Source: Spirochaetaceae bacterium
Lineage (GTDB): Bacteria; Spirochaetota; Spirochaetia; Treponematales; Rectinemataceae
Assembly (NCBI GenBank): GCA_025356015.1
Contig: JANXYO010000007.1
Span: 1 to 64,000, forward strand
Direction: 5' to 3'
DNA: 64,000 nucleotides
Positions 28,048-42,082 of this stretch are shown here, one piece after another (the first letter of the stretch is position 1; each line of letters begins with the position of its first letter). Position numbers and translations under genes: made by a program. A model generated the notes under the pieces. It was not told the origin of the DNA and did no database searches. It saw nothing but the letters and a program-made list of their open reading frames with translations.

Positions 28048-29586
28048 GTGATATTGTTTCGCATAGCCCTTCGGAACCTCCTTCGCCGAAGCCGCAAGAA
28101 CCTGGCCATCGGGGCCCTGATCGCGGTGAGCGTCGCCGTCTTCTTCACGGGAAACGCCATCCTCGAGAGCTCGGTGAGCGGGATCCAGCGAACCTTCTCC
28201 GAGCAGTTCACCGCCGATCTTTCCGTCAGCGCGAAGGCCGAGCAGAGCTTCAGCCTTTTCGGCTCCGACACCCCCGTCATAGGCGACTACGAGGTCCAGC
28301 CCCTCCTCATCAACGCCAGTGAAACCGGGGCGAGGCTCGCCCGGGTCCCCGGTGTCGAGGCTACGGCCTATGTCCTCTCCTCCCCCCTTCTTGTCGAGTC
28401 GGGGGGGGCCAGGGGCGGGGGACTTGGCCTTGGCGTCATCGGTGACGAGTACTTCGCTCTCTTCAGCCAGCTCCGTTTTGTCTCAGGCTCGGCCCCCAAG
28501 CCGGGGAGCTCGGGCTGGGTCGTCATCACCGAGGAGAGGGCCAAGGACATCGAGAAGGCCCAGGGCCGGGCCCCTGCCCCCGGAGATAGGATCCTGCTCT
28601 CAGTCTTCCGCAACCAGAGTTTCGCCATCCGCGAGGCGAGCCTCGCGGGCGTCATACGCTACGAGCCGAGCGCCGAGGCCCTCGCCCAGGTCATCCTTGT
28701 CGACGCACGCATCATCAGGAGCCTGAATGGCTTCGCCCAGACCGATGCCCAGAGTGCAGCCCCCCCAGGCTCGGCGGCGCCCGCCGCCCCGGCCGCCCCT
28801 GCCGCGAGCCAGGACATAGACTCGCTGTTCTCGGAGACCGCCTCTCCCCCCACGGCCCCCACCGTTGCCAAGGGCGAGGCGGGCGCGGGGACCGAAGTCC
28901 CTCCGGCTCCAGTCAGCGTCGACGAGCTTCGTAGGACCTTCCGGGAGGCGAGGACGGCCGGAGAGGCCACGGCCAAGGCCGCGTCGACGCTCAACCACGA
29001 GGGATCCTGGCACTTCATCCTCATAAAGGCGGCCGCCGCTTCCGATAGGAAGCGCGTGGCGGCTGCCATAAGAAGCGAGCTCTCGCTCGCCGGCCTCCCC
29101 GCCCTGGTGCGCGACTGGCGCGGCACTGCGGGCTCGGTAGCCGCCTACGTCTATGTCATGCGATTTGTCTTCGACATCGGCATCGCGATGGTCGCCCTCA
29201 TCGTCCTCATGCTGACGATGAACTCCATCGTCGTGTCGGTGTTCGAGCGGACCGCCGAGATCGGGACCATGCGCGCCCTGGGCGCGAAGCGCAGTTTCGT
29301 AAGGAAGCTTTTCGTGATCGAGACGATAAGCCTTTCCCTGGCCGCGGGCATCGTCGGCGTCGTCCTGGGCCTGGGGGCCGTGGGTCTCATCCGCATCGCC
29401 CCCCTCCATTTCGGCAACGACATACTGATCCTCCTCTTTGGGGGGAGCACGCTGCGGCCCCTGGTGACGGCCGGGAACTTCGCCCTGTCCCTCGCCTCAG
29501 TCCTCGGCCTCGGGACAATCGCGTGGGTGATCCCGGTCCGGCTGGCGCTCAGAATCCAGCCAATCCGCGCCATCATGAAGGGCTAG
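28048..29586 (+). CDS. FtsX/MacB-type ABC permease with DSLF-containing periplasmic domain
   Basis: A 512-residue inner-membrane protein of the LolC/E-FtsX-MacB permease family. One helix near residues 18-40, a large periplasmic domain (about 45-365), then three helices (about 370-395, 430-455, 475-500) with the cytoplasmic ERTAEIGTMRALGAKRSFV coupling segment. Within the periplasmic domain is an Ala/Pro-rich loop (about 236-300) with DIDSLFSE at 256-263, resembling DNLDSLFEN of the barrel protein three genes on. The start is GTG at 28048. It lies 12 nt before the second permease. No ATPase is encoded in the cassette. Likely role: extraction of lipid or lipoprotein from the inner membrane. 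Confidence 0.87.
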   Translation: MILFRIALRNLLRRSRKNLAIGALIAVSVAVFFTGNAILESSVSGIQRTFSEQFTADLSVSAKAEQSFSLFGSDTPVIGDYEVQPLLINASETGARLARVPGVEATAYVLSSPLLVESGGARGGGLGLGVIGDEYFALFSQLRFVSGSAPKPGSSGWVVITEERAKDIEKAQGRAPAPGDRILLSVFRNQSFAIREASLAGVIRYEPSAEALAQVILVDARIIRSLNGFAQTDAQSAAPPGSAAPAAPAAPAASQDIDSLFSETASPPTAPTVAKGEAGAGTEVPPAPVSVDELRRTFREARTAGEATAKAASTLNHEGSWHFILIKAAAASDRKRVAAAIRSELSLAGLPALVRDWRGTAGSVAAYVYVMRFVFDIGIAMVALIVLMLTMNSIVVSVFERTAEIGTMRALGAKRSFVRKLFVIETISLSLAAGIVGVVLGLGAVGLIRIAPLHFGNDILILLFGGSTLRPLVTAGNFALSLASVLGLGTIAWVIPVRLALRIQPIRAIMKG

Positions 29587-29598
29587 AGGGTAGGCATC

Positions 29599-30882
29599 TT
29601 GGTTTTCAAGGTAGCTGCGCGCAACTTCACCCGCAACGCCAGGCGCTTCCTCCTCCTCGGGGCCGCTGTCGCCGCGGGCTTCTTCGTGATCTGCATCATC
29701 CAGAGCCTGGTCGCCGGGGTCACCAACCAGATCAACGAGAGGGGGGCGCGCTTCTACGGCGGCCACCTCGTCGTGCTCGGCTACCAGAAGCACCCTGTGG
29801 TGAGCGCGAGGATCGGGGATGACCGCCCGGTCCTCGAGGCCATCGCCCGCTCGGGAATAAAACCATCCATCGTCTCCCACCGGACCCACGAGGGCAACGG
29901 CCTCGTGTTTTTCAACGGGGAGAAGCTCGCGATGCGCCGCATCATAGGCCTCGACTGGGCCGACGAGGGGCCCGCGATACGGCAGATGGAATTCGTCTCC
30001 GGCGACCCCGACAGGATGAAGGATCCCCGGAGCGTCCTCATCTCGGAGGAGACCGCCAGGCGCCTCGGCGCCAAGGTGGGGGACGAGGTCGTCCTCGAGG
30101 TCGAGCGCGAGGCCGGGGCCATCGACACGAGGAACCTCCTCGTCGCCGCGATCTTCCGCGAGGCGAGCATCTTCGGCTACTTCACCCTCTACATGGACCG
30201 GCGCACCCTCAACTCGGCGAGCGGCATGGATGCCGACGACTGCAACCTCATCGGAATCTACCTCGATGACTACCGCAAGGCACAGGCGGCATCCACACGC
30301 CTCCTCGCGGCCCTGAAGACGGAATTGCCGACCTTCCCGCCCCTCGCCAGCCGCGACGATTTCTACGAGGCCCGCTCGGCCGACTACCAGGGAATCCGCT
30401 ACGGGACGATGACCGTCAGGGGCTTCCTCTCGGAGATCGGGACCATGCTCGAGGCCCTCACGATGGTGAGCTACGGCATCCTCGCCCTCGTCATCGTCGT
30501 TGTCACCGTGGGTATCATGAACATCTATCGCGTCATGATCTACGAAAGGACGCGGGAGATAGGCACGATGCGCGCGATAGGTGTCAGGAGGGCCCAGGTG
30601 CGCAACCTGGTCCTCGCCGAGGCCCTCATGCTCTCGGCCTGCAGCATCGTGGCGGCCCTGGGCTTGAGCGCCCTGGCCCTCTTCTTCGCTTCGCGTATCC
30701 AGCTCGCCGTGGGAGCGGGCTTTGACATCTTCCTCGACCGGGGCCACCTTAGCTGGTTCATCAACGGCGATGTCACGGCGCTCGACGCCGCCCTCATCGT
30801 CCTGGTCACCCTTTTCGGGGCCCTCGGACCCGCAAGGGCGGCTCAGGCCATCGAGCCCGCCGCCGCCCTGCGCAGCGATTGA
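29599..30882 (+). CDS. FtsX/MacB-type ABC permease, second subunit
   Basis: A 427-residue inner-membrane permease paralogous to its upstream neighbour: N-terminal helix (about 15-40, LLLGAAVAAGFFVICIIQSL), periplasmic MacB-like core domain (about 45-280), and three C-terminal helices with YERTREIGTMRAIGVRRAQV between the first two. The start is a TTG (29599) shortly after GAGGGTAGG; MVFKVAARNFTRNARRF is the usual amphipathic entry of this family. The two permeases probably form a heterodimer like LolC/LolE. The stop overlaps the possible TTG start of the next frame, whose better ATG is at 30894. Confidence 0.88.
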   Translation: MVFKVAARNFTRNARRFLLLGAAVAAGFFVICIIQSLVAGVTNQINERGARFYGGHLVVLGYQKHPVVSARIGDDRPVLEAIARSGIKPSIVSHRTHEGNGLVFFNGEKLAMRRIIGLDWADEGPAIRQMEFVSGDPDRMKDPRSVLISEETARRLGAKVGDEVVLEVEREAGAIDTRNLLVAAIFREASIFGYFTLYMDRRTLNSASGMDADDCNLIGIYLDDYRKAQAASTRLLAALKTELPTFPPLASRDDFYEARSADYQGIRYGTMTVRGFLSEIGTMLEALTMVSYGILALVIVVVTVGIMNIYRVMIYERTREIGTMRAIGVRRAQVRNLVLAEALMLSACSIVAALGLSALALFFASRIQLAVGAGFDIFLDRGHLSWFINGDVTALDAALIVLVTLFGALGPARAAQAIEPAAALRSD

Positions 30883-30893
30883 CAGGAGCAGCA

Positions 30894-31703
30894 ATGATCA
30901 GTTCCGGAATATCCCCGAGCCGCCCCAGGCGGCCCCTCCTCGCCCTTGCAGCCTTCCTCTGCCTCCTCCAGGCCCTGGCCGCCCAGATACCCGCCGGGAC
31001 GGACTTCACAGCCCTCCTAAAGAAGGCCGACGCCCTGGTCACCTTCCCGGACACGGACTTCTCGGCCGAGTACACCTTCGTGCAGGAGAGCCCCGGCCAG
31101 GGGAAGAGCACGAAGCAGGCCATGGTCTTCCGCCGGGACAGCGAGAACACCTACCTCATTGTCATGGTCATGCCCGTCGAGGACAAGGGCAAGGGCTATC
31201 TCAAGTCGAACGACAACCTCTGGTTCTACGATCCGGTCTCGAGGCGCTTCACCTTCACCAGCGCGAAGGAGCGATTCCAGAACATGAACGCCCGCAACTC
31301 CGATTTCACCCGATCCAACCTCGCCGGTGACTACAAGGTGACCTCGGCCCGGTGGGAGGCCCTGGGCAAGTACCAGTGCTGGGTCCTCGACCTCTTGGCG
31401 ACCAGCCCCGAGATACCCTCGCCAAAGATGCGCATCTGGATAAGCGACGACGGCCTTGCCAGGAAGACCGAGGACTACAGCCTCTCGGGCCAGAGACTTC
31501 GCACTACGGCCTTCCCCCAGTACCAGGTCGTGGGCACCCGTTTCGTCCCACAGACCGTGGTCATCCTCGACGAGCTTCGGGGCGCGAACATCAATGGGGT
31601 TTTTGTCAAGGAAAGGACGACCTATACGATAACCCGGCCCTCCATGCAGAGCCTGCCCGACGCGACCTTCTCAAAGGCCTGGCTGGAGAAACTCAGTGAC
31701 TAG
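30894..31703 (+). CDS. LolA-like outer membrane lipoprotein-sorting protein
   Basis: A 269-residue periplasmic protein with signal peptide (about 1-31, ending LQALAAQ) and a LolA/LppX-like half-barrel fold (COG2834 type): FSAEYTFVQESPGQGK, NTYLIVMVMPVEDKGKGYLKSNDNLWFYDPVSRRF and the repeated hydrophobic strands that line a lipid-binding cavity. Such proteins ferry lipoproteins or lipids between membranes. It lies between two inner-membrane permeases and an outer-membrane barrel, so it is the obvious periplasmic carrier of this cassette. CAGGAG precedes the ATG at 30894; a TTG 15 nt upstream is less likely. It overlaps the barrel gene by 8 nt. Confidence 0.87.
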   Translation: MISSGISPSRPRRPLLALAAFLCLLQALAAQIPAGTDFTALLKKADALVTFPDTDFSAEYTFVQESPGQGKSTKQAMVFRRDSENTYLIVMVMPVEDKGKGYLKSNDNLWFYDPVSRRFTFTSAKERFQNMNARNSDFTRSNLAGDYKVTSARWEALGKYQCWVLDLLATSPEIPSPKMRIWISDDGLARKTEDYSLSGQRLRTTAFPQYQVVGTRFVPQTVVILDELRGANINGVFVKERTTYTITRPSMQSLPDATFSKAWLEKLSD

Positions 31704-33126
31704 GACGGGCGCCGCACTCCCCGTCCTCCTCCTCCTCGTGGCCCTCTGCCTGCCCGCTGCGGCCCAGACCGGCACGGCCGCGGCCCCTGCCGGAACGGCC
31801 ACCGGCGAGGCGGCGCCCCAGGCCCAGGGCACGGCTGGCAGCGGCGACAACCTGGACAGCCTTTTCGAGAACGGCACGACTCTCCCTCCGGCCACTGTCG
31901 ACAAGAACCCGGTTGAGACCGCCCCGATCCGCCCCGATGACCTCTCGCGCGACGAGAAGATGCGATTCTTCGGCACCTGGAGCGCCTACGCGAACCTCGG
32001 CCCGGGCTGGTCCAATTGGCCCAACTTCTCCCAGCCAAAGCGCTACTTCCTGGTTGACGGCGGCGCCTCGCTCACGGCTGGCCTTGGATTCGAGGTCAGG
32101 CCTGCATCCCAGCTCAGGCTGCGAGGGCTGGCGACCTATAATTTCCCCACCACGGGTCTCCAGGTCACCGAGCTCATCATCGACTACACCCTGAGGAACA
32201 CGATCTTCTTCAGGGCAGGCATTTTCGGCTATGCCTGGGGCGACGCCCAGTTCTCCCAGCTGGGCAATCTTCCGGGGCGGACCCTTCCCTCCTGGTCGAC
32301 CGACACCATCCCGGTGTGGCAGACCACCAATCTCATCACCAATTCCACCACCTCGAACCTGCCCACCTCGGTCAAGGCCTACATCCCGCTTGGACGAAAC
32401 GGCCTCACCTTCCTCGTCAGGGCCGATCCCAACTACTTCGTGAGCCGCACCGAGCCCGACCTCAAGAGCGCGGGCTATGGCCTCGAGTACGACCAGGTGA
32501 CCGGACCCGTCGAGTGGACCCTGGGCGGCTTCTACCAGCGCCTCCTCACTCCGCGGGCCATGCTCGTCGGGAGGTCGACAGTCCTCGGCTGCGCCCTCTC
32601 TGTCGAGACCCTGATGGCCTTCCCCGTGACCTTCAAGGGCACGGGGGCGGTTGCCGTTCCCACGGCTGGCGGTGGTGTCTATATCGGCGGTCCTTTGCAG
32701 CGGGTGTATCCCAGCATGGTCCTTGGCCTCTCGCGCGAGTGGACGGCCCTCAACCTCAAGCTTCACCTCGAGTACACCATCAACAGCGAGCGAGACCCGC
32801 GTGGAGACCAGGCGAACCCCGACTGGCTCCCCGACGCCGTGGGTCCCGGTGGCCACGCCACCGATGTCGCCCTCCACCTCGGCCGTCTCTTTGACAACAG
32901 GAAGATCGGACTGAACCTGCTGTGGCAGCACAACTGGACGACCAGCGCCGGGCTTGCGGCCTCCTTCCTCGAGCTGGCACCCGACTCGGTCCTGACGGTC
33001 CAGATTGGGGCCGAGACGATCTATGGCTCGGACGTGGCCGAAGTCTCGGCCAACAGGCTCCTGCCCGAAAACAACCGCTTCGGCTTCGTGCTCCTGGCCC
33101 GGCTCAACACGAGCTTCAGGGAATAG
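31696..33126 (+). CDS. Outer-membrane beta-barrel of the LolA cassette
   Basis: A 476-residue exported protein: signal peptide (about 1-24, ending LPAAAQ), a disordered Ala/Thr/Pro-rich stretch (25-75) containing DNLDSLFEN at 51-59, and a barrel of alternating strands from about 85 to the end (LNTSFRE). GTG start overlapping the previous stop by 8 nt indicates translational coupling. Genes of this arrangement in other bacteria place a large barrel (DUF1302-like role) next to a LolA-like carrier. A role as outer-membrane acceptor or exit for the exported lipid is inferred from position. Family not recognised with certainty. Confidence 0.82.
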   Translation: MTRTGAALPVLLLLVALCLPAAAQTGTAAAPAGTATGEAAPQAQGTAGSGDNLDSLFENGTTLPPATVDKNPVETAPIRPDDLSRDEKMRFFGTWSAYANLGPGWSNWPNFSQPKRYFLVDGGASLTAGLGFEVRPASQLRLRGLATYNFPTTGLQVTELIIDYTLRNTIFFRAGIFGYAWGDAQFSQLGNLPGRTLPSWSTDTIPVWQTTNLITNSTTSNLPTSVKAYIPLGRNGLTFLVRADPNYFVSRTEPDLKSAGYGLEYDQVTGPVEWTLGGFYQRLLTPRAMLVGRSTVLGCALSVETLMAFPVTFKGTGAVAVPTAGGGVYIGGPLQRVYPSMVLGLSREWTALNLKLHLEYTINSERDPRGDQANPDWLPDAVGPGGHATDVALHLGRLFDNRKIGLNLLWQHNWTTSAGLAASFLELAPDSVLTVQIGAETIYGSDVAEVSANRLLPENNRFGFVLLARLNTSFRE

Positions 33127-33187: not shown

Positions 33188-33217
33188 TTGCCGTCCTCCA
33201 CCGGGCCCCCGTACATT
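33188..33217 (+). promoter_or_regulatory. Putative leaderless promoter of the PAP2 gene
   Basis: TTGCCG, 18 nt, TACATT, then only 6 nt to the ATG at 33224. Confidence 0.45.
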
Positions 33218-33223
33218 CTAGGG

Positions 33224-34144
33224 ATGAGCGAAACCACGATTCCTTCCCCTGTCAGGCCTTCGTCATCCAAGGCGGGCAGGGGCCTTGTCCCCCTGCTCCT
33301 GGCCCTGTGCCTCGCCCTTGTCCCCGGCCTGGGAGGGGCCGCGCAGGAGGCCTCGGTCCCGGCCCAAGCCCAGGTCCCTGGAAGGCCCCTGCCCCCGGCC
33401 GTCCCCGAAGCCTTCCCCTACAGGCTCGGCGCGGTCAGGGAGGCCACGATGGGCGCGACAGCCCTTGGCCTCTATGGCTCGAGCTTCTACTTCAATTCCC
33501 TGAAGCGCTCGGCCAACGCCGCCGACCTCAGGGACTCGAGCATCCCCTTCTTCGACCGCCTCTACACCAGCTCCCACTCCTCGCCGATGGGGACAGCTGC
33601 CGACGTCCTCATGGTCTCGGCCGCCCTTGCCCCCGAACTGGCCGCGGCGGCCTTCGCCCCTGGCCTCGATGGGGGGAAGTTCCTCACGATCGGGGTGATG
33701 TACGTGGAGACCATGGGCCTGGCCTACAGCTCCGCCGAGCTCCTCAAGAGCCTGGTCACCCGCTACAGGCCCTATGGGTATTCCGGCACCGTCGACTTCG
33801 GCGACTCGGAGCTAACCTCGTCCTTCCCCTCCCGTCACGCGATGATCGCCTTCTCCTCGGCGACCTTCGCCGGCTTCGCCTTTGACAAGGTCGCGCCCGG
33901 ATCGCCCTGGAGCCCCCTCGTGTGGGCCTCTGGTCTCGGCCTCGCCACGGCGACCTCGGTGCTCAGGGTTGCCTCGGGCGACCATTTTCCCAGCGACGTG
34001 GTCGCCGGAGCCATTCTCGGCTCCGCCCTTGGCTACCTCGTGCCCCTCCTCCACGAGAAGCGAGGAGGACGCGGTCCTGTGTCCCAGGTCAGCCTCCTGC
34101 CCACGGGGAATGGCCTCCTCCTCGACCTGAGCCTCTCCCCCTAG
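33224..34144 (+). CDS. PAP2-family phosphatase, membrane-associated
   Basis: A 306-residue protein with an N-terminal signal/anchor (about 18-40) and several hydrophobic helices. The three PAP2 motifs are seen: KSLVTRYRP (KxxxxxxRP), FPSRHAMIAF (PSxH) and VASGDHFPSDVVAG (general SRxxxxHxxxD; first Arg in VLRVASGDH). It should dephosphorylate a lipid phosphate such as undecaprenyl pyrophosphate, phosphatidate or phosphatidylglycerophosphate at the periplasmic face. It starts 97 nt after the LolA cassette with its own leaderless-type promoter, so it may be only loosely linked to that cassette. Confidence 0.85.
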   Translation: MSETTIPSPVRPSSSKAGRGLVPLLLALCLALVPGLGGAAQEASVPAQAQVPGRPLPPAVPEAFPYRLGAVREATMGATALGLYGSSFYFNSLKRSANAADLRDSSIPFFDRLYTSSHSSPMGTAADVLMVSAALAPELAAAAFAPGLDGGKFLTIGVMYVETMGLAYSSAELLKSLVTRYRPYGYSGTVDFGDSELTSSFPSRHAMIAFSSATFAGFAFDKVAPGSPWSPLVWASGLGLATATSVLRVASGDHFPSDVVAGAILGSALGYLVPLLHEKRGGRGPVSQVSLLPTGNGLLLDLSLSP

Positions 34145-39856: not shown

Positions 39857-42082
39857 ATGGCTCCGCAGCAATTTTTCCCCGAGTGGAAGACCTTTCTGGG
39901 CGAGGAGGACTCGGGCGCTGCCCCGGTCAGGCAGGTGGCCAAGCGTTCCGGGGAGGTCCAGCGCTATGACCGCAAGAAGATAGCCACCGCCGTCTCCAGG
40001 GCCTTCGCGGCCGCCCTCGAGGCCTCCGGGGGCACCGAAAGCGGCCAGGGCGGCGCGGGGATGGCCGAGCGGGTCGACCGCGTCGTCGCCCTCGTCGAGC
40101 AGAGGCTCTCCGCCCTCATGGCCTCCCGGCACCCGAACTCGATACCCGCGATCGAGGAGATCCAGGACCTCGTCGAGACGGCCCTGGTCGAGGCGGCCGA
40201 GGCGAGGACGGCCAAGGCCTACATCCTCTACCGCGCGCGCCACGAGGCCCTCCGCGACGCCTCGAAGCTCATGCTAGACATAAACTCGACCATGGACGGC
40301 TATCTCTCCCAGGCCGACTGGCGGGTCAAGGAGAACGCCAACGTCAACTACTCCCTGGGGGGCCTCATCCTCCACAACTCGGGGACGATCACAGCCAACT
40401 ACTGGCTGCGCAACATCTATCCCGAGGATATAGCCCGCGCCCACCGCGAGGCCGACTTCCACATCCACGACCTCTCGATGTTCTCGGGCTACTGCGCGGG
40501 CTGGTCACTGCGCCAGCTCATCGCCGAGGGCCTTGGCGGAGTGCCGGACAAGATCAGCTCCCGGCCGGCCAAGCGCCTGTCGACCCTCGTCCAGCAGATG
40601 GTCAACTTCCTGGGCGTCCTCCAGAACGAGTGGGCCGGAGCCCAGGCCCTCTCCTCCTTCGACACCTACCTCGCCCCCTTCGTGAAGAAGGACTCCCTGG
40701 GCGACACCGAGCTCAGACAGTGCATCCAGAGCTTCCTTTTCGGGGTGAACACGCCGAGCCGCTGGGGAAGCCAGGCTCCCTTCACGAACGTCACCCTCGA
40801 CTGGACCTGCCCGGCCGACCTCCGCGCCCGGCAGGCTGTCGCGGGTGGCTCGGAGCTGCCCTTCACCTACGGCGACTGCCAGGCCGAGATGGACAGACTA
40901 AACCGGATCTTCATCGAGCTCATGCTCGAGGGCGACGCCGAGGGCAGGGGCTTCCAGTACCCCATACCCACCTACAACATCACCCGCGACTTCGACTGGG
41001 ATTCGCCCAACGCGCGGCTTCTCTTCGAGATGACGGCCAAGTACGGCACGCCCTACTTCCAGAATTTCGTGAGCTCAGACCTCGACCCCGGCGACGTGCG
41101 CTCCATGTGCTGCCGCCTCCAGCTCGACAAGCGCGAGCTGCGAAAACGCGGCGGCGGCCTCTTCGGCTCGGACGAGCTCACGGGCTCGGTGGGGGTCGTC
41201 TCCCTCAACATGCCCAGGATCGGCTACCTCGCGAAGGGCAGCAGCGGTAAGAACACCCGCGCCGACTTCTTCGCAAGGCTCGACGCCCTGTGCGACCTCG
41301 CCGCGAAGTCCCTGGCCATCAAGCGCAAGGTCATCACACGCCTCCTCGAGGGCGGGCTCTTCCCCTACACGAGGCGCTACCTGGGGAACTTCGACAACCA
41401 CTTCAGCACGATAGGCCTCGTGGGCATGCACGAGTGCTGCCAGAATTTCCTCGGCCGCGGCATCGAGACCGAGGAGGGGAGGGCCTTCGCCCTCGAGGTC
41501 CTCTCCCACATGAGGCAGAGGCTAAAGGAGTACCAGGTGAAGACCGGGGTCCTTTTCAACCTCGAGGCCACCCCCGCCGAGTCCACGAGCTACCGCCTCG
41601 CCAAGCATGACAAGGAGCAGTGGCCCGACATCATCTGCTCAGGCGCCCCGGGCGGCAGCGGCGAGGACGGTTCAGCGGCCGAGCGTCAAGGCACGAGCTC
41701 GGCGGCCGAGCGTCAAGGCACGAGCTCGGCGAGGCCTTTCTATACCAACTCGAGCCAGCTCCCCGTCGACCTCACCGAGGACCTTTTCGACGCCCTCGAC
41801 CAGCAGGAGGAGCTCCAGGCCTCCTACACCGGCGGCACGGTCTTCCACGTCTTCCTCGGTGAGGCGCCGGAAGACTGGAGGGCTGTGCGCGACCTCGTGC
41901 GCACCATAGCCGCGAACTACCGCGTGCCCTACTACACGATCTCCCCGACCTTCTCCATCTGCCCCGTCCACGGCTATCTCTCGGGCGAGCACTTCTCCTG
42001 CCCGCGCTGCAAGGCCGAGCAGGAGGCCCGGCTCCGCGGCGAGATAGAGAGCCTCGAGCGCGAGCTGGCGGCCGCGAGGTGA
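39857..42082 (+). CDS. nrdD: Class III ribonucleotide reductase catalytic subunit lacking the glycyl-radical domain
   Basis: A 741-residue anaerobic NTP reductase large subunit. An ATP-cone lies at about 28-135; the barrel carries NTPSRWGSQAPFTNVTLDW, RSMCCRLQLDKRELRKRGGG, LTGSVGVVSLNMPRIGYLA and STIGLVGMHECCQNFLG, typical of the redoxin-dependent NrdD2 branch. The C-terminal zinc site is present (CPVH ... CPRC), but the protein then ends in a helix (EARLRGEIESLERELAAAR). The glycyl-radical segment that should follow is absent and is encoded by the next gene. A 9-residue in-frame tandem repeat (AAERQGTSS twice, 41675-41728) interrupts a loop near residue 610. GGAGGT precedes the ATG. Confidence 0.93.
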   Translation: MAPQQFFPEWKTFLGEEDSGAAPVRQVAKRSGEVQRYDRKKIATAVSRAFAAALEASGGTESGQGGAGMAERVDRVVALVEQRLSALMASRHPNSIPAIEEIQDLVETALVEAAEARTAKAYILYRARHEALRDASKLMLDINSTMDGYLSQADWRVKENANVNYSLGGLILHNSGTITANYWLRNIYPEDIARAHREADFHIHDLSMFSGYCAGWSLRQLIAEGLGGVPDKISSRPAKRLSTLVQQMVNFLGVLQNEWAGAQALSSFDTYLAPFVKKDSLGDTELRQCIQSFLFGVNTPSRWGSQAPFTNVTLDWTCPADLRARQAVAGGSELPFTYGDCQAEMDRLNRIFIELMLEGDAEGRGFQYPIPTYNITRDFDWDSPNARLLFEMTAKYGTPYFQNFVSSDLDPGDVRSMCCRLQLDKRELRKRGGGLFGSDELTGSVGVVSLNMPRIGYLAKGSSGKNTRADFFARLDALCDLAAKSLAIKRKVITRLLEGGLFPYTRRYLGNFDNHFSTIGLVGMHECCQNFLGRGIETEEGRAFALEVLSHMRQRLKEYQVKTGVLFNLEATPAESTSYRLAKHDKEQWPDIICSGAPGGSGEDGSAAERQGTSSAAERQGTSSARPFYTNSSQLPVDLTEDLFDALDQQEELQASYTGGTVFHVFLGEAPEDWRAVRDLVRTIAANYRVPYYTISPTFSICPVHGYLSGEHFSCPRCKAEQEARLRGEIESLERELAAAR
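41675..41728 (+). repeat. 27-bp tandem duplication inside nrdD
   Basis: Two perfect 27-bp copies (41675-41701, 41702-41728), each encoding AAERQGTSS in frame, in a surface loop just before the PFYTNSSQLP segment. Confidence 0.9.

Follow-up and report, generated by a model that had tools for sequence, protein, structure and literature searches.

A short acidic-hydrophobic motif common to a permease and the probable outer-membrane barrel of a putative Lol-like export cassette in Spirochaetota

Introduction

The LolCDE–LolA–LolB system of Escherichia coli and its LolDF variants combine type VII ABC permeases of the LolC/E or LolF kind with a carrier of the LolA fold, and in E. coli a periplasmic loop of LolC, the Hook (residues 167–179), recruits and binds LolA (PMC10865981). 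The Borrelia genes BBJ23–29 form a putative export cluster that encodes a MacB/LolE-like ABC exporter, a LolA-like carrier and an outer-membrane barrel; its BBJ25 product is Omp85-like, its BBJ27 product is a homodimeric permease, and two TPR proteins are also encoded (PMC13078400). AmeABCD of Castellaniella defragrans and related DUF1302–DUF1329–RND cassettes likewise unite an inner-membrane pump, a carrier of the LolA superfamily and an outer-membrane protein, and PDB 3BUU, 3BK5 and 4Z48 have been named as relatives of that carrier (PMC6394551).

Here we describe a gene set of Spirochaetota whose parts are of the kinds known from Lol, BBJ23–29 and AmeABCD, and in which one permease and the probable outer-membrane barrel carry the same short motif, an apparently undescribed candidate for docking. 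No published account of the cassette or of the shared motif was found in the open-licence literature searched and, to our knowledge, docking through a shared motif has not been described for Lol, Lpt or Mla. The locus bears on the delivery of glycolipids and lipoproteins to the outer membrane in spirochaetes, most of which are without lipopolysaccharide, and on the way in which a carrier of the Lol type locates its acceptor in the outer membrane when LolB is absent.

Gene set and comparison with described systems

The window, a stretch of 64,000 nucleotides comprising bases 1–64000 of the contig labelled C149 in a Spirochaetales genome of 4.17 Mb, contains four genes arranged head to tail on the + strand, with stop/start overlaps at both ends of the carrier gene. 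The first (28048–29586) encodes permease 1, a 512-residue FtsX permease (PF02687, 8e-17) of LolC/E-, LolF- and MacB-like type, the family profile of which matches LolF (9w35, 3e-27) and also LolE and MacB. Permease 2 (427 residues, 29599–30882) has FtsX (6e-15) and MacB_PCD matches in Pfam. Pfam and profile matches place an FtsX domain and a large periplasmic domain after TM1, the trait of type VII ABC permeases. The third gene (30879–31703) encodes a periplasmic carrier of 274 residues (LolA_like, PF17131, 4.5e-29) related by sequence to PDB 3buu (2.4e-17). A structure model of moderate confidence (pLDDT 55) retrieves 3buu in Foldseek (1.5e-13) and also resembles the DUF1329 structure 4z48; sequence and model together predict a LolA fold.

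The fourth gene (31696–33126) encodes a protein of 476 residues without any Pfam match, from a family conserved downstream of the carrier. Like the carrier, it begins with a signal peptide that has no lipobox cysteine, and about 70 residues of its mature N-terminus are disordered. Since an AlphaFold2 model made with three sequences was poor (pLDDT 33.5, with long antiparallel strands, unusable for a fold search), its designation as a probable outer-membrane barrel is based on the signal peptide, gene position and strand pattern. The coordinates and Pfam matches agree with an earlier sequence-only reading of this DNA, which had described two FtsX permeases, a LolA-like carrier and a barrel as consecutive open reading frames.

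The cassette resembles the Lol systems in its permease type, in the predicted fold of its carrier, in having a periplasmic loop of one permease as the likely docking site, and in the LolD-type ATPase gene present in most orthologous cassettes, though not beside the copy in the window. Unlike Lol, its outer-membrane end is a barrel rather than LolB, the same motif occurs at both ends, the permeases score 35 and 60 bits against the NCBIfam LolC/E model TIGR02212 (cut-off 362), and a separate LolCDE-like locus (C40) is present in the same genome. Conceptually closest is BBJ23–29, also from a spirochaete and with exporter, carrier and outer-membrane barrel in one cluster. In contrast to that cluster, the cassette has two different permeases and no TPR genes, its neighbours encoding HAD and PAP2 phosphatases, and no Omp85 or POTRA family was matched in 31 barrels (Pfam matches up to E 1). 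AmeABCD differs in its RND (HAE3) pump, where the cassette has FtsX-type ABC permeases; the similarity of the barrel to DUF1302 is marginal, and no shared motif is seen in the accessible part of the AmeABCD report (PMC6394551). With MacAB–TolC the permeases share the MacB-type periplasmic core and the FtsX fold, whereas the cassette has neither a MacA adaptor nor TolC, and has a soluble carrier.

Distribution of the cassette and source of its ATPase

Carrier matches were present in 91 of 99 related genomes, and permeases, carrier and barrel co-occurred in 43 fetched loci, mostly in the order seen in the window; in loci whose barrel escaped the similarity search, the gene after that of the carrier usually encoded an exported protein resembling a barrel. 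The barrel profile matched 63 of 198 genomes sampled over the phylum, and found no member of the family in the small-genome class-mates (f7). All 20 of the barrel-profile regions that were fetched contained the carrier, and nearly all contained both permeases where the contig permitted. Barrel and carrier hence accompany the permeases phylum-wide, the co-occurrence that the sequence-only reading had proposed as a check. One locus (L095, 7915–12652) has permease 2 ahead of permease 1, followed by carrier and barrel, and retains the motif.

The usual order in Spirochaetota is LolD–permease 1–permease 2–carrier–barrel. The LolD-type gene, usually first in orthologous operons, is missing in the window and in about fifteen relatives. 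The sequence-only reading was right that no such gene adjoins the cassette, and the ABC matches listed on the contig are only the two halves of one 738-residue open reading frame at ∼10.7–12.2 kb; its description of the cassette as self-contained was mistaken, as the usual set includes the ATPase. Elsewhere in the genome of the window, LolD genes accompany the paralogous cassettes C109, C133 and C124 and occur in the LolCDE-like locus C40. Ten of ten further genomes checked that lack LolD in the cassette encode a LolD sharing 70–73% identity with its C109 counterpart. The copy in the window, without LolD, presumably borrows an ATPase and, since the ten LolD-less genomes checked have the gene elsewhere, sharing is likely; the simplest reading is that the C149 permeases use an ATPase in common with a paralogous cassette. 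In three loci (L193, L097 and L108) the LolD gene is convergent and lies just behind the barrel gene rather than at the head of the operon; such loci may represent a stage at which the cassette is losing the gene.

A motif shared by permease 1 and the barrel

The periplasmic linker of permease 1 contains DIDSLFSE at residues 256–263 (28813–28836, + strand), with PP at 267, and the N-terminal region of the barrel contains DNLDSLFEN at residues 51–59 (31846–31872, + strand), with PP at 64; permease 2 has no motif. Both copies lie at exactly the residues given by the sequence-only reading. That reading had extended the likeness to a PP and TV(A/D)K tail, and TVAK and TVDK are indeed present in the window's proteins, but this extension is mostly local; what relatives share beyond the Phe is less defined, a patch of hydrophobic residues at positions +5 to +8.

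Conservation in orthologues, also proposed as a check, was borne out: the core, with the consensus hydrophobic-D-[DSE]-[LM]-F, recurs in both places across relatives and is kept through much of the phylum. Its strict form was found in 24 of 36 permease-1 linkers (shuffle mean 0.70, maximum 4 in 2000 rounds) and in 22 of 28 barrel N-termini (shuffle mean 0.55, maximum 5). Identity at Phe261 of permease 1 is 96% in an alignment of 53 permeases, with no variation in an alignment of 21, and Phe57 of the barrel is among three invariant columns in an alignment of 31 barrels that are ∼20% identical. This alignment-based conservation, in segments that are otherwise unalignable, is independent of any bias from the starting matrix of a motif search. 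Searches with a scoring matrix that had been refined on permease 1 detected the motif in 35 of 57 barrels, and those with a matrix refined on the barrels detected it in 34 of 53 permeases, in each case above the 99% level of shuffles run with the same search. The two matrices agree at most positions, an agreement that is not fully independent because both began from a permease-1 matrix.

Examples with the motif in both places (permease 1/barrel) are L085 (DLDDLF/VLDDLF), L100 (DMDSLFAEESDIFVEE/DFDSLFSEAEDIIVEE) and L110 (ADALFGEDVLV/IDSLFGDEVLV). The barrels of L093, L094 and L194 have tandem copies, while some members have degenerate copies only, and L197 is without the Phe in permease 1 and barrel alike.

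The motif is specific to the cassette. None of 75 control open reading frames from the same loci, chosen as exported by a simple signal-peptide heuristic, reached the score attained by 35 of 57 barrels (Fisher p 3e-17). A strict DNA pattern gave 111 matches in 98 genomes, 32 of them no more than 4 kb from a carrier gene where 0.4 were expected. Among 14 matches of a strict DNA pattern in the window's own genome, permease 1 was the sole envelope protein recognised. These controls and matches rule out a general trait of exported proteins. Mimicry of the C-terminal LPDxxF segment of the carrier was likewise rejected, as that segment scores at shuffle level. In the same genome, neither the LolCDE-like locus C40 nor the C124 cassette has the motif in its permeases or outer-membrane protein. 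The C124 set (L106, 2093–7177), which encodes LolD, a LolC/E-like permease, a LolA-like carrier and an exported protein of outer-membrane type, all motif-free, is a divergent cousin of the cassette.

The two copies within one cassette are more alike than overall relatedness would predict. Pairs from the same cassette were more alike than mismatched pairs (20.5 versus 12.7), and this held against relatives with a carrier identity of at least 30–50% (p 0.001–0.04) and in a partial Mantel test that controlled for carrier distance (r 0.15, p 0.001), although these p-values are guides only because species are not independent points. The effect fades against close relatives with a carrier identity of 60% or more (p 0.21), as expected where there is little variation. 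In L200, one and the same 12-mer, SDDDLFGAPETV, is present in permease 1 and in the barrel, encoded with several synonymous codon differences; given the differing codons, the likeness was not put down to gene conversion or to a recent duplication.

A docking model and its alternatives

We propose, with a probability of about 0.5, that the motif is a docking berth for the carrier, at the pump and then at the barrel, in a Lol-like cassette for lipid or lipoprotein export. In this scheme the two permeases form a heterodimeric pump of the type VII ABC kind, driven by a LolD-type ATPase encoded outside the cassette, probably in a paralogous one. The pump would lift an amphiphilic cargo off the inner membrane and pass it to the LolA-fold carrier, which would traverse the periplasm and unload at the outer-membrane barrel. 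The acidic-hydrophobic motif, in the flexible linker of permease 1 and in the flexible N-terminus of the barrel, would be the site at which the carrier docks, first at one membrane and then at the other. We infer both the direction of transport and the lipid nature of the cargo. A more tentative proposal is that pump and acceptor display the same co-evolving motif and that the carrier binds either copy through one docking site, never both at the same time. Docking would then be mutually exclusive, and cargo loading and ATP turnover could set the direction.

The geometry of the barrel points to the carrier as the likely common partner. The linker from motif to barrel has 24–53 residues (median 30) and is too short to reach the inner-membrane pump comfortably, which favours a mobile partner; among the products of the cassette, only the carrier is soluble. 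The linker bearing the motif in permease 1 corresponds to approximately residues 213–223 in LolE numbering, so that its position within the periplasmic domain does not match that of the LolC Hook at 167–179. It is thus not the Hook, and docking of the carrier there would be analogous rather than homologous to that of LolA on LolC.

A different cargo is a somewhat unlikely alternative that is compatible with carrier docking and was weighed apart from it. In a drug or hydrophobe efflux system of the MacAB or AmeABCD kind, the carrier would hand small apolar compounds over to the barrel, which would release them. AmeABCD, a monoterpene exporter, joins a DUF1302 barrel and a DUF1329 carrier of the LolA superfamily to a pump of the RND type (PMC6394551); the resemblance of the carrier model to 4z48 and a weak DUF1302 match in 2 of 31 barrel-family members (best E 0.01) would fit such a role. 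Against it, the pump belongs to the type VII ABC permeases, MacA-like adaptor and TolC are absent from the cassette, and no catabolic or resistance genes were seen as consistent companions.

Two other binding partners are each unlikely. If the motif bound the periplasmic domain of the permease pair, the copy in permease 1 would be an internal pseudo-ligand with which the barrel N-terminus competes, coupling pump and barrel directly in the manner of a TonB box. Short motifs commonly act as internal competitors, and one copy is already on a permease; however, a coil of 24–53 residues spans a few nanometres, whereas the periplasm measures some 15–25 nm, and no such partner surface has been identified. 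Alternatively, both copies might bind a third periplasmic protein encoded elsewhere, such as a chaperone or a scaffold linked to peptidoglycan, with a role in assembling or positioning the system. The motif is conserved as well as core residues are, as this would have it, but no additional constant cassette gene was seen, and a general chaperone would not predict a motif that is absent from all 75 controls and clusters at carrier genes. That the likeness is convergence of low-complexity acidic sequence, without common function, is extremely improbable: in most species the two segments do share disorder and an acidic character, but shuffles of the same segments gave 0.5–0.7 matches against the 22–24 observed, and the invariant Phe stands within otherwise unalignable linkers.

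For carrier docking, a motif common to donor and acceptor makes the matter concrete enough to be settled with peptides and point mutants. The pattern hydrophobic-D-[DSE]-[LM]-F near a mature N-terminus also offers a sequence handle with which to pair barrels with pumps and to separate the paralogous cassettes of one genome.

Neighbouring genes

The cassette is flanked by a divergent gene for a HAD phosphatase upstream and a gene for a PAP2 phosphatase downstream, neither of which lies beside the other cassettes in the 43 loci fetched. The PAP2-family gene (33212–34144, same strand) encodes a signal peptide and begins 86 bases past the barrel gene; its absence beside other cassettes rules it out as a fifth member and makes it probably an accidental neighbour. 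Further along the window, a probable anaerobic ribonucleotide reductase gene (39857–42082) sits behind an NrdR-like gene and contains a tandem duplication of SAAERQGTS at 41672–41725.
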